In this document: positions 21,584-37,596 of the stretch, in pieces
How positions within the stretch are numbered: the stretch's first letter is position 1
Layout of the letters: the number at the start of each line of letters is the position of its first letter
Assembly: GCA_017618275.1 (NCBI GenBank)
Contig: JAFZUS010000004.1
Location: forward strand, 93,575-157,574
Length of the DNA stretch: 64,000 nt
Source: Prevotella sp.
GTDB lineage: Bacteria > Bacteroidota > Bacteroidia > Bacteroidales > Bacteroidaceae
Reading direction: 5' to 3'
Notes under the pieces: model-generated
Database searches by the model: none
What the model saw: the letters and a program-made list of their open reading frames with translations, nothing else
Told to the model about the DNA's origin: nothing
Position numbers and translations under genes: made by a program

Positions 21584-21592
21584 AAAGTACAT

Positions 21593-21617
21593 AAAAAAAG
21601 GGACTCCGCTGAGTCCC
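21593..21617 (-). terminator. Intrinsic terminator on the minus strand
   Basis: A 7-bp stem (GGGACTC with GAGTCCC), 4-nt loop and seven Ts in the minus direction. It ends either the possible small RNA or the cyd/BspA transcript. Confidence 0.75.
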
Positions 21618-21655
21618 AGAAATGTTAACCTTAAATCTAATACTATGAAAAACAC
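21593..21655 (-). ncRNA. Possible ~60-nt small RNA with own promoter and terminator
   Basis: Read on the minus strand: a complete promoter (21660-21691), then about 35 nt of unstructured AT-rich sequence, a GGGACTC/GAGTCCC hairpin with an AGCG loop, and seven Ts. No start codon with a sensible frame lies between promoter and terminator. The hairpin may also terminate the BspA-like gene upstream. No family name can be given by eye. Confidence 0.45.
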
Positions 21656-34897: not shown

Positions 34898-34983
34898 TCC
34901 AATCTTACTCATACCTATCTCCAATCCTGCTCATACCCATCCCCAATCCTACTCATACCAATCTCAATTCCTACTCCAACCCA
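34898..34983 (+). repeat. 22-bp tandem repeat, about 3.5 units
   Basis: Units start at 34898, 34920, 34942 and 34964 with core CAATCCTACTCATACC. No coding sense. It sits in the putative leader of the hypothetical gene at 34127-34861. Confidence 0.8.
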
Positions 34984-35034
34984 ATGCCACTGTATCTCAT
35001 ATTCTTGTCCGGTTCATGTTCGCTTCTTCTTCGG

Positions 35035-35096
35035 TTGTTGTCCGGTTAAAAAGCGGACAACAAGCGGACAACAACCGAACAACAAGCGGACAACAA
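35035..35096 (+). repeat. GCGGACAACAA 11-bp tandem repeat with inverted copy
   Basis: Four 11-bp units (35053-35096; the third reads CCGAACAACAA) follow an inverted copy TTGTTGTCCG (35035-35044), giving a 10-bp stem with a 9-nt loop to the first unit. Competing pairings with the later units are possible. Confidence 0.8.
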
Positions 35097-35144
35097 TAGG
35101 AGTAGGACATTCGTTGCCTATAAATTGTACATGCGAAGGGCTTG

Positions 35145-35230
35145 AGAAGTCTATGAGATGCATCGAAGATGCATTGGATATGCCTATGAGAACCGTATGA
35201 GATGCCTATGAGATACATATGAGGTGGATT
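35145..35230 (+). repeat. Imperfect (C)CTATGAGA(TGC) repeats
   Basis: CTATGAGATGC, CCTATGAGA, GTATGAGATG, CCTATGAGATAC and ATATGAGGTGG recur in about 80 bp. Low-order repeat without coding sense. Confidence 0.5.
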
Positions 35231-35254
35231 TGAGTAAGACTTTTTATCTGTCTG

Positions 35255-35285
35255 CAAAGATACAAACATTTGTGCAACCTTCAAA
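35255..35285 (-). promoter_or_regulatory. Minus-strand promoter of the repeat-rich leader
   Basis: TTTG (35285-35282), 19 bp, TATCTTTG (35262-35255). The transcript would run through the three repeat arrays into the hypothetical gene at 34861. It is divergent from the RNA promoter at 35334-35364. Confidence 0.65.
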
Positions 35286-35333
35286 GGAAAAAGCCCCGAA
35301 ATCCACAAAAGATGAATCTTTTTTCTCTTTTTC

Positions 35334-35364
35334 TTTCATTATTCGAAGTTTTTTCATATATTTG
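35334..35364 (+). promoter_or_regulatory. Promoter of the rod-folding RNA
   Basis: TTTC (35334-35337), 19 bp, TATATTTG (35357-35364). The predicted start is about 35370, just before the first paired base of the RNA. Confidence 0.65.
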
Positions 35365-35371
35365 CACCTGC

Positions 35372-35545
35372 ATTCTGCAAAGGGTGCAAAGACATATTGC
35401 TCTATAGCTTCACAATCACCACCGCGAACGAAAGAGCAACAACTATTATAGGAACTGCCCCTATATGGGCGCAGAATTCCCGTATATAGTTGTGGTTTGT
35501 GGTGAACCGTGAAGCGTATGGCGAATTTCTGCGCCTTTTCTGTTA
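35372..35545 (+). ncRNA. Rod-shaped structured RNA, possible 6S-like RNA
   Basis: The stretch folds on itself end to end. Closing stem: 35379-35388 with 35530-35539. Next GCTTCAC (35407-35413) with GTGAAGC (35509-35515), CACCAC (35417-35422) with GTGGTG (35499-35504), CAACTATTATAGG (35440-35452) with CCGTATATAGTTG (35480-35492), and a GCCC/GGGC tip near 35457-35470. Between the second and third inner stems is a large asymmetric bubble (about 17 by 6 nt). A promoter ends just upstream and a T run follows the 3' arm. About 170 nt, one long hairpin with a central bubble and its own promoter resemble 6S RNA, which traps RNA polymerase; Bacteroidales have a diverged form known as Bacteroidales-1. 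A leader of the gene at 35606 is the other reading, since GGCGCAGAATTC can also pair with GAATTTCTGCGCC as a terminator-like stem. Confidence 0.6.
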
Positions 35546-35605
35546 TGATAAAGCAGACGAGTAATTGCTAACATAGGTAATAAACAATAAATAGAAATAG
35601 ACGAT

Positions 35606-36079
35606 ATGAGGACAAAAAGAATTATTATTGCATTGGCGTTGGCTGCATTGCCTTTGGTTGAGTGCCTTGCTGAGGGTGTAAAATTCTTAATTGTGAATAG
35701 CAGGGACGGAACACAGACGAGTTTTGCTTTGGCTGAAGAGCCGAGGTTATCATTTTCTAATGGCGAACTATGTATTGTCAGTAGTACCAGAACATTTTCG
35801 ATGAGTTTAGCCGATGTTCAGAACTATGCTTTCTTGAATGAAACGACAGGAATTGCTGAGGTCATAAAAGCCGGTAGCGTAAAGTTGGAAAATGGATTTA
35901 TTGTCTTTAGCGGTTTGACGGCAGGAAGCAGGATTGCAGTCTATACGCAGGATGGGAAAATTGTGAAAGAAAGCAAGGCAGAAACAAACGGATCTGCAGT
36001 CGTGGAAGTATCTGGTTTGCCAAAGGGTATCCTATTGCTGCACTCGAATAATACAAGTATTAAAATCATAAATAGATAA
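35606..36079 (+). CDS. Small secreted protein with sorting-tail-like C terminus
   Basis: 157 residues with a signal peptide of about 22 residues. The middle (LIVNSRDGTQTSFALAEEPRLSFSNGELCI) looks like the short beta domain seen at the front of many Bacteroidales exported proteins. The last ~65 residues resemble a type IX secretion tail in layout (LENGFIVFSG, RIAVYTQDGKIV, EVSGLPKGILLL, SIKIINR), though the usual YIV step reads ILLL. GC is lower than in most of the window. It lies 5 bp before the SusD-like gene, so the two form a pair. Confidence 0.75.
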   Translation: MRTKRIIIALALAALPLVECLAEGVKFLIVNSRDGTQTSFALAEEPRLSFSNGELCIVSSTRTFSMSLADVQNYAFLNETTGIAEVIKAGSVKLENGFIVFSGLTAGSRIAVYTQDGKIVKESKAETNGSAVVEVSGLPKGILLLHSNNTSIKIINR

Positions 36080-36084
36080 GGAAT

Positions 36085-37596
36085 ATGAAAACGAGACTTT
36101 TTTCTTTGATTATTTTTCTGGCCACAATGTCGCAAATAGCATTGGCGCAGACAACAGTTTATAAAATGAACGTGAAATTGAAAGACGGCTCGATCCATAC
36201 TGTCAAGGCTGATGACGTGATGGAAGTTTACTTTACCGCTTCCCAGCCTTATGATCCGTCGCATCCCGTTACAGCCGATGTGGAATCGATTCATGCACCG
36301 AAAGAGGGTGGAACATATACCGTTCATATAAACAGTAACATTCCCCTGACAACTGTTGGCGGTAATCCTGATGCTATCGCTATTGTTGATTTCTTTGACC
36401 ATTTTCTCAATCGGGGTCCTGTCAGCATGACAAGCAACTATGACGAGGGTATACTTACTATTATTGTTAATCCTACAATGAATTATACCGTGAATAGCCG
36501 TAAAGTGAAACTATATGACCTTGAAGGAACTGAGGCTTTCTCACTCACGGTATCGCAAGACGGAGACCCTGATGCAATGTTTATCAGCGAGGATGGAAAC
36601 AATTATATTGCATCGTTGGCTGAGGCTACATATAACAGTCATGCAGCATACCGTAAGGCTGACGCAGAATATACAGGATTGATTAACCTTGAAGGATTCA
36701 AGGCTCCATTGCAGCCATACGATTATAGAGTTCGAGAAATATGGTATACATTATATCAGAGTATCAATAGAAACTATCCGCTGATGCAGCATTGTGATGC
36801 ACAGGGCATGGGTGTCTTCCGACCAATGTGTTCCGTTTTGAATGCCTTATCGTATTATCAGTTGGTGACCTTCTTCGGGGGTGTTCCATACGTTACTGAC
36901 AACATAGACTATGCAATAAGAATTGCGCCTGATGAAATCTTTAATAACCTCATTGAGCAATTGAAAGCCTCTATGGGAGATATGGACGAAAAAGTGACAG
37001 GATATGTAGACAGTCATGAAAAGATGTATTCATTATCAAAAGATATTGCTCGAGTAGTACTTGCTGATATCTATATGTATCAGGGTAGGTATATGGAAGC
37101 AAAACCGCTATTGGAAGAGATTGTAAACAGCAATCGCTATTCGCTTGTTAATGCAACAGACAATCTTGACCCCACTTGTTCTGAGATTATATGGAGCCAA
37201 GCAATTAATTCACCGACCAGAGCGAATGACAATGTTGTTATCTCATATAATAATTATCTGTGCATTTATCAAACATATGGCGATGTACTCCTTTCTCTGG
37301 CAGAATGTGAAAACAAACTGAACAATGACACGAAAGCGAAGGAATACATGAGCCAAGTAGCAACAACAAAGGGAATCGAAACTACATCGACTGATATTAT
37401 AGCCGCAATCTCGGAGCTTCGTCATAGAATCCAAATTGATTTTGGCGGTTATTTCGCTTTTCTGAAGCGTACAGGTCTGGCTCAGTCCACGCTTGGACTA
37501 GAAGAATATCAATTGCTATTCCCAATTCCGCAGGATGAAGTCAGTAGGAATCCTTATATGACGCAGAATCCTGGGTATGGCGCTACAACGAGGTAA
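36085..37596 (+). CDS. SusD/RagB-like protein with N-terminal BACON-like domain
   Basis: 503 residues. A type I signal peptide ends ALAQ; there is no lipobox Cys, which is unusual because SusD proteins are surface lipoproteins. Residues about 25-55 repeat the short DG-rich domain also seen in the gene before it. About 70-165 is a BACON/Ig-like domain (VESIHAPKEGGTYTVHINSN). The rest (about 185-503) has SusD features: the LSYYQLVTFFGGVPYVT helix region, tetratricopeptide-like helices, and the ending YQLLFPIPQDEVSRNPYMTQNPGY. The SusD part is shorter than usual (about 320 against 450-550 residues), and no SusC gene is adjacent. AT-rich compared with its surroundings. Confidence 0.82.
   Translation: MKTRLFSLIIFLATMSQIALAQTTVYKMNVKLKDGSIHTVKADDVMEVYFTASQPYDPSHPVTADVESIHAPKEGGTYTVHINSNIPLTTVGGNPDAIAIVDFFDHFLNRGPVSMTSNYDEGILTIIVNPTMNYTVNSRKVKLYDLEGTEAFSLTVSQDGDPDAMFISEDGNNYIASLAEATYNSHAAYRKADAEYTGLINLEGFKAPLQPYDYRVREIWYTLYQSINRNYPLMQHCDAQGMGVFRPMCSVLNALSYYQLVTFFGGVPYVTDNIDYAIRIAPDEIFNNLIEQLKASMGDMDEKVTGYVDSHEKMYSLSKDIARVVLADIYMYQGRYMEAKPLLEEIVNSNRYSLVNATDNLDPTCSEIIWSQAINSPTRANDNVVISYNNYLCIYQTYGDVLLSLAECENKLNNDTKAKEYMSQVATTKGIETTSTDIIAAISELRHRIQIDFGGYFAFLKRTGLAQSTLGLEEYQLLFPIPQDEVSRNPYMTQNPGYGATTR

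Follow-up and report, generated by a model that had tools for sequence, protein, structure and literature searches.

A widespread leader RNA family of Bacteroidales with two conserved folds and near-identical cores ahead of unrelated genes

What kind of RNA lies directly upstream of two genes for putative secreted proteins in the genome of a Prevotella sp., and does it act on these genes? The window, a stretch of 64,000 nucleotides from contig JAFZUS010000004.1, was described in an earlier note as carrying a real structured RNA at 35372-35545. The note drew it as a rod of nested stems with a central bubble, proposed that it is a 6S-like RNA, and raised as another possibility that an alternative, terminator-like helix makes it a switch for the secreted-protein genes downstream. 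The existence of a structured RNA is confirmed, both by its minimum free energy (MFE) of -65 kcal/mol, which none of 200 dinucleotide shuffles equals (-42.0 +/- 3.5 kcal/mol, z -6.6), and by covariation in homologues.

Two sets of helices can be drawn in this RNA. State A is the rod P2-P3-P4 plus an apical hairpin, and hides the strand GCGCAG. State B consists of H1, a small GGY/RCC hairpin and T1 plus T2; here GCGCAG pairs with a 3' CUGCGC, giving a GC-rich helix followed by a U run. As predicted secondary structures the two conserved sets are mutually exclusive. The alternative pairing proposed earlier is exact, with 35468-35476 (GGCGCAGAA) matching 35527-35535 (TTCTGCGCC) at 9 of 9 positions, then TTTT. 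The features of the locus are the following.

35357..35364, + strand: -7 promoter element TAnnTTTG, TATATTTG, identified from the sequence, homologue counts and the published consensus (PMC7366714)
35369..35388, + strand: H0, 5' hairpin, 35369-35375 with 35382-35388; beats the shuffle mean in 106 of 119 copies
35391..35536, + strand: conserved core, match to covariance model R1 with 155.1 bits
35397..35439, + strand: H1, UUGCUC 35397-35402 with GAGCAA 35434-35439; state B, or pseudoknot in state A
35407..35515, + strand: P2, 35407-35413 with 35509-35515; state A
35416..35505, + strand: P3, 35416-35422 with 35499-35505; state A
35440..35492, + strand: P4, 35440-35446 with 35486-35492; state A, hypervariable
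35455..35474, + strand: apical hairpin, 35455-35461 with 35467-35474; state A, hides the 5' strand of T1
35468..35535, + strand: T1, 35468-35476 with 35527-35535, terminator-like helix; state B
35477..35525, + strand: T2, 35477-35484 with 35517-35525, one bulge, extends T1; state B
35494..35508, + strand: small hairpin GGU...ACC, 35494-35496 with 35506-35508; state B
35536..35539, + strand: U run 3' of T1; a core-end U run is present in 87 of 119 copies
35606..36079, + strand: first gene after the RNA, 157-aa protein with a signal-peptide-like start, no Pfam family
36085..37596, + strand: second gene, SusD/RagB-like (PF07980, E 2.9e-12)

The bubble between P3 and P4 is asymmetric, with 35423-35439 facing 35493-35498. 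Short tandem arrays with periods of 11 or 22 bp occupy 34898-35234, just upstream of the promoter.

A DNA search of 60 relatives gave 14 matches in 11 genomes, and 12 of these were used to build covariance model R1, which describes a 148-nt core with P2, P3 and P4 only. Among the 299 genomes examined from the window's genus, 152 have the core by R1, with up to 9 copies each, and the window's own genome has it at two places; the remaining 147 genomes gave no match under strict filters, so that the family is patchy as well as multicopy. Across the order the core was found in 18 of 393 genomes and 13 of 206 genera, and a search with an exact DNA pattern returned 118 stretches in named records. 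Among the matches listed are Prevotella, Hoylesella, Paraprevotella clara, Phocaeicola vulgatus ATCC 8482, Barnesiella, Alistipes and Paludibacteraceae. Two contigs labelled Clostridia and Lachnospiraceae (L178, L181) also hold copies of Bacteroidales type, and are perhaps mis-binned contigs of metagenome-assembled genomes. Searches of plasmids and phages with blastn, and of viral contigs with an exact pattern, returned no match. A phage or plasmid element was rejected on these searches, which may miss distant relatives since they comprise blastn and an exact pattern only.

The leader is thus one copy of a real and widespread RNA family of Bacteroidales, apparently without earlier description. 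Thousands of candidate RNAs from human microbiomes have been reported (PMC8040213), and some of the motifs resemble the leader in coming from Bacteroidetes or in being palindromic, terminator-like or located upstream of genes. We found no description of the family there, nor such a leader named in the literature searched; an earlier unnamed listing is possible.

The 119 copies studied comprise 13 of the 14 DNA-search loci (L005, a 49-nt match only, was dropped), 26 of 30 R1 loci (four repeated DNA-search loci) and 80 regions from the best R1 matches listed, which biases the set to high scores. Tests of base pairing used 100 of these copies, 95 of them distinct. The copy at 1384-1570 of L009 is interrupted by an internal insertion, and this locus was omitted from the swap test and from the counts of one- and both-sided changes described below.

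The covariation analysis proposed in the earlier note was run on these 100 copies, and both helix sets covary. Taking P2, P3, P4, H1, T1, T2 and the GGY/RCC hairpin together, 94.4% of cells are paired and 31 of 46 pairs have changed on both sides, with no shuffle of 500 reaching this level; slid partners are at most 46% paired. Because the alignment had been fitted to P2-P4, the state B helices were also tested alone. They are 93.1% paired, and 12 of 25 pairs have changed on both sides, a count that 2 of 500 shuffles matched. Their covariation score is 0.200, compared with 0.138 for shuffled and at most 0.076 for slid partners. Changes on both sides affect 7 of 7 pairs in P2, 5 of 7 in P3 (99.5% paired), 7 of 7 in P4, 4 of 8 in T1 (94.4% paired) and 5 of 8 in T2 (92.1% paired). 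H1 is 92.8% paired with 1 of 6 pairs changed on both sides, and compensated versions occur as UAACUC/GAGUUA (L138, L170) and AUAGCUC/GAGCUAU (L135). Of the 95 distinct copies, 51 have UA as the third pair of the GGY/RCC hairpin, 28 have both of its sides changed and 16 leave it unpaired.

A swap test, in which the pairing of a copy's own two strands was compared with that of one own strand and the strand of a distant copy (n = 99), favoured the native combination for P2 (97), P3 (97), P4 (95), the apical hairpin (89), H1 (88), T1+T2 (87), T1 (78), the P4 extension (70) and T2 alone (64). T2 by itself is thus weakly supported. The basal rod pairing was better in its native form in only 56 of 99 and is without support. 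On these results both the rod and the terminator-like helix are conserved, whereas the outermost rod stem is not. In the homologues the first ~25 nt instead fold locally as H0, which is more than 2 kcal/mol better than the mean of 30 shuffles in the 106 copies listed above. The nested stems, asymmetric bubble and upstream promoter of the rod drawn earlier therefore stand, but its outermost stem, although it can form in the window's own copy, is not retained in homologues and was rejected in favour of H0 as the better fit.

TAnnTTTG is the Bacteroidetes -7 consensus as published (PMC7366714). Of the 119 copies, 107 have the motif in the 60 nt that precede the core, ending 17-32 nt (median 25) before it; the corresponding figure for control windows is 46 of 1526. 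At the other end, the core-end U run has a frequency of 34 in 476 control windows, and is absent or weak in 32 of the 119 copies. A simple terminator scan found nothing; it permits loops of 3-8, and the loop of T1 is 50 nt. A coding stretch was rejected, as none of the six reading frames is open through the core in more than 31 of 119 copies. Two subgroups (L006, L061 and L011, just after the core; L009, L101, L105, L106 and L110) have extra common sequence between U run and gene, GTTGGCTC...GAGCCGAC or TTCTTATGCCC..., which by eye may form further leader hairpins.

The predicted energies of the core in 100 copies average -54.7 kcal/mol for state A and -41.0 kcal/mol for state B. State A is favoured by a median of 13 kcal/mol, although the difference (B minus A) ranges from -9.3 to 39.1 and B is better in some copies. 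Since state A is predicted to be the more stable, state B would need help from co-transcriptional folding or from a factor. Otherwise T1 and H1 could be pseudoknots within one single fold.

6S RNA is a stand-alone gene present in one or two copies per genome, and its long basal rod closes both ends around a promoter-like bubble. The idea that the leader is a 6S-like RNA binding RNA polymerase draws on its rod with an asymmetric bubble and the promoter in front, and on paper a rod with a central bubble is common to the leader and to 6S RNA and 6S-Flavo (RF00013, RF01685). The models of these RNAs do not match here. Scans with all 4227 Rfam models gave no 6S match to the leader even at E 10. The six weak matches in 35200-35700 at E up to 10 are all far below cut-off and none is 6S, and 20 loci of the family yielded tRNAs only. 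At the Rfam cut-offs the whole window has one hit, unrelated to the leader, the sRNA FopS (RF04319, 69.7 bits) at 21590-21655 on the - strand. According to its Rfam description FopS is, like the leader, a paralogous RNA of Bacteroidetes, but its 71-position model does not match the leader. Unlike the stand-alone 6S gene, the leader family is multicopy (up to 9) and linked to genes (116 of 119 copies), and it gave no match in the 147 genus genomes mentioned above. Its 5' end is a hairpin of its own, and the basal rod pairing barely beats swaps.

Bacteroidales-1 (RF01693) is similar to the leader in length and host group, but it is a separate locus and its model gives no score on 35372-35545. 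The search with Bacteroidales-1 and 6S models suggested in the earlier note has thus been carried out, and neither matches the leader. In the window's genus Bacteroidales-1 was found in 30 of 36 genomes, with one match per genome where found, and four genomes (G006, G016, G017, G028) have the leader family with Bacteroidales-1 elsewhere; the window's own genome, 92% complete, gave no Bacteroidales-1 match. No 6S-Flavo turned up in the 24 genus genomes searched; of all 40 genomes, 2 gave a match, below its cut-off. That Bacteroidales-1 is 6S RNA was the earlier note's statement; PMC2864571 lists it, in the part consulted, under no such name. A 6S RNA with pRNAs has been reported from B. thetaiotaomicron (PMC7366714). 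On the Rfam scans, copy number, gene context and the separate Bacteroidales-1 locus, 6S identity was rejected, and we consider a 6S-like role very improbable.

The position of the leader between a promoter and a gene holds by location, with the motif in 107 and a same-strand nearest downstream ORF in 116 of the 119 copies. The upstream neighbours are mixed (48 on the same strand, 62 on the opposite one, 9 with none). In 118 of 119 copies an ORF of 50 aa or longer begins no more than 400 nt downstream, and in the 90 first genes counted the start lies a median of 53 nt past the core. Exported-looking products are encoded by 73 of these 90, compared with 69 of 188 further ORFs from these loci (p 1.7e-12), as called by a home-made hydrophobicity rule under which 29 of the 119 copies lack a qualifying ORF. 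A looser rule, applied without a control, gives 97 of 118. Seventeen of the 90 do not look exported, and the gene downstream of the second copy in the window's own genome has, by eye, no evident signal peptide.

This arrangement bears on the proposal that the copies are stand-alone trans-acting small RNAs, each with its own terminator, the gene being reached by read-through or from another promoter. Their own promoter, hairpin start, U run and size of ~175 nt would suit such RNAs, but the same-strand gene just downstream, the short distance to its start and the enrichment of exported products count against the proposal, which we hold to be improbable.

The 118 downstream proteins fall into 68 homology clusters. 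A Pfam search of 113 of them found BspA-type leucine-rich repeats in 15, along with outer-membrane barrels, C10 and S8 peptidases, sorting domains, DarT and T5orf172. This diversity does not fit a metabolite riboswitch, which would be expected ahead of genes of one metabolic pathway. Conversely, homologues of the 157-aa protein exist in 116 of 249 genus genomes, often several per genome, and R1 found a leader in only 2 of 30 loci with such homologues. When 12 of the 30 loci of another search were added, the count was still only 2 of 42 loci with homologous genes, a set that does not include the known carriers L250-L252. The leader is not tied to its downstream gene. It resembles attenuation leaders and riboswitches of the terminator/antiterminator kind in its 5' UTR position, its mutually exclusive helices and a GC-rich helix that leads into a U run ahead of the start codon. 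It differs from them in lacking a common downstream pathway, in having near-identical cores before unrelated genes, and in having no Rfam match in the loci scanned.

Near-identical cores do stand ahead of unrelated genes. Downstream proteins were taken as non-homologous when BLASTP gave no hit at 1e-8 over 60 residues. A core identity of 93% or more is seen in 42 of the 6771 pairs of copies whose downstream proteins are non-homologous in this sense, and in 17 of the 132 pairs whose downstream proteins are homologous. This suggests that the core can travel. In 14 of the 42 pairs BLASTN similarity (gapped) reaches at most 12 nt past the core upstream and 15 nt past it downstream, as in L003/L025 with 98.6% identity. 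In the other 28, similarity stops upstream but runs on downstream in 4, covers 13-60 nt upstream, that is H0 and the promoter, in 15, and extends more than 60 nt upstream in 9. Averaged over the 42 pairs, the identity of H0 is 0.65 compared with 0.54 in pairs with dissimilar cores, and that of the region 105-205 nt upstream is 0.51 compared with 0.49. When the set was widened to 199 copies, BLASTN gave 2041 pairs at 80% identity or more, and in 1729 of these the similarity ended no further than 40 nt from the core on either side. This count takes in partial-core matches, and conservation alone could also give it.

Sharing is sometimes one-sided. Core and gene are common and the promoter side differs in L076/L077 and L002/L224, whereas the promoter side is common and the gene differs in L031/L032 and L018/L045. 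L076 and L077 have near-identical flanks, apart from ~425 bp that carry promoter and H0 and stop 9 nt short of the core. One-sided sharing would fit both insertion and homologous recombination through the core. No empty site was found in the two gene families examined, where the element-free homologues are too distant for a clean junction. Integron-like cassettes were rejected: the short loci examined contain no arrays, and L113 alone shows another hit, a weak and overlapping one on the opposite strand.

Folded single-stranded DNA is the working form of attC sites, REP elements and IS200-type ends. By comparison, the leader may be a small DNA module that moves or recombines and whose hairpin works in this same folded form, which would make the RNA fold in part a by-product. 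The 14 pairs in which similarity ends at the core edges speak for such a module, as does the pairing of the rod. Although the most variable helices are among P2-P4, only 1.0% of the variable pairs of P2+P3+P4 are G-U (0.9% of all pairs), compared with 10.5% in T1+T2 and 11.4% in H0 by MFE folds. The value for Bacteroidales-1 of the same taxa is 18.6%, based on a consensus structure of 25 pairs that we computed for 30 loci and that is weak. Since a G-U pair is A-C on the other strand, the scarcity of G-U in the rod fits a constraint on both DNA strands. Furthermore, between copies at 80-87% identity both-sided changes outnumber one-sided ones in P4 (713 vs 70) and P2 (279 vs 82), whereas T1+T2 has 16 vs 370; the pairs of copies behind these counts are not independent, and one poorly aligned P2 pair (column 34) was omitted here and from the G-U figures.

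Several observations run against a mobile module. Of the 42 pairs, 28 have similarity that runs beyond the core, in 24 of them for more than 12 nt upstream and in 4 on the downstream side alone, so that a single unit is lacking. The copies also keep an almost constant orientation and spacing relative to promoter and gene, contrary to what free insertion would give. T1, T2 and H0 have RNA-like G-U contents, and by single-sequence MFE folds the whole core (9.5%) is near Bacteroidales-1 (12.4%), whose consensus structure here is weak. The excess of both-sided changes shrinks among closer copies, to 24 vs 9 in P4 and 7 vs 9 in P2 at 87-93% identity, and to 1 both-sided vs 4 one-sided in P2 and P4 together at 93-100%. 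To this are added the missing empty sites among those checked and the negative blastn and exact-pattern searches of plasmids, phages and viral contigs. We regard the module as rather unlikely. The low G-U content of the variable rod helices hints at a role at the DNA level, and strong selection for a stable RNA helix, or correction of one arm by template switching, may explain it as well. A bolder and doubtful combination is a portable cassette of ~150 bp, in which P2-P4 would serve as strictly Watson-Crick DNA arms for copying from leader to leader and between genera, while H1, T1 and T2 would form the bistable RNA. If true, regulons would be built as this mobile RNA switch inserts or converts, bringing the same on/off control to each captured gene, often one for an exported or surface protein.

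The reading we prefer, with somewhat better than even confidence, is that of a cis-acting bistable 5' leader with its own TAnnTTTG promoter and a portable core, read into the downstream gene and acting by attenuation, as we infer from the two folds and their position. State B would stop transcription, or otherwise block expression, ahead of the start codon, and in state A RNA polymerase would pass. A ligand, a protein or a cellular condition would tip the balance between A and B, and many exported and surface proteins would be switched through one common leader. As the downstream genes share no pathway, we make no guess at the ligand. The switch put forward as a second idea in the earlier note fits the homologues.

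The placement of the core before unrelated genes is an observation, and as its route both insertion and recombination would fit. The copy in the type strain Phocaeicola vulgatus ATCC 8482 (L139) makes the proposed switch testable at the bench. If the common leader governs dozens of unrelated accessory genes, one RNA signal would switch many proteins facing the host or neighbouring cells in many gut and rumen Bacteroidales, and such control could be gained by the acquisition of a 150-bp cassette.
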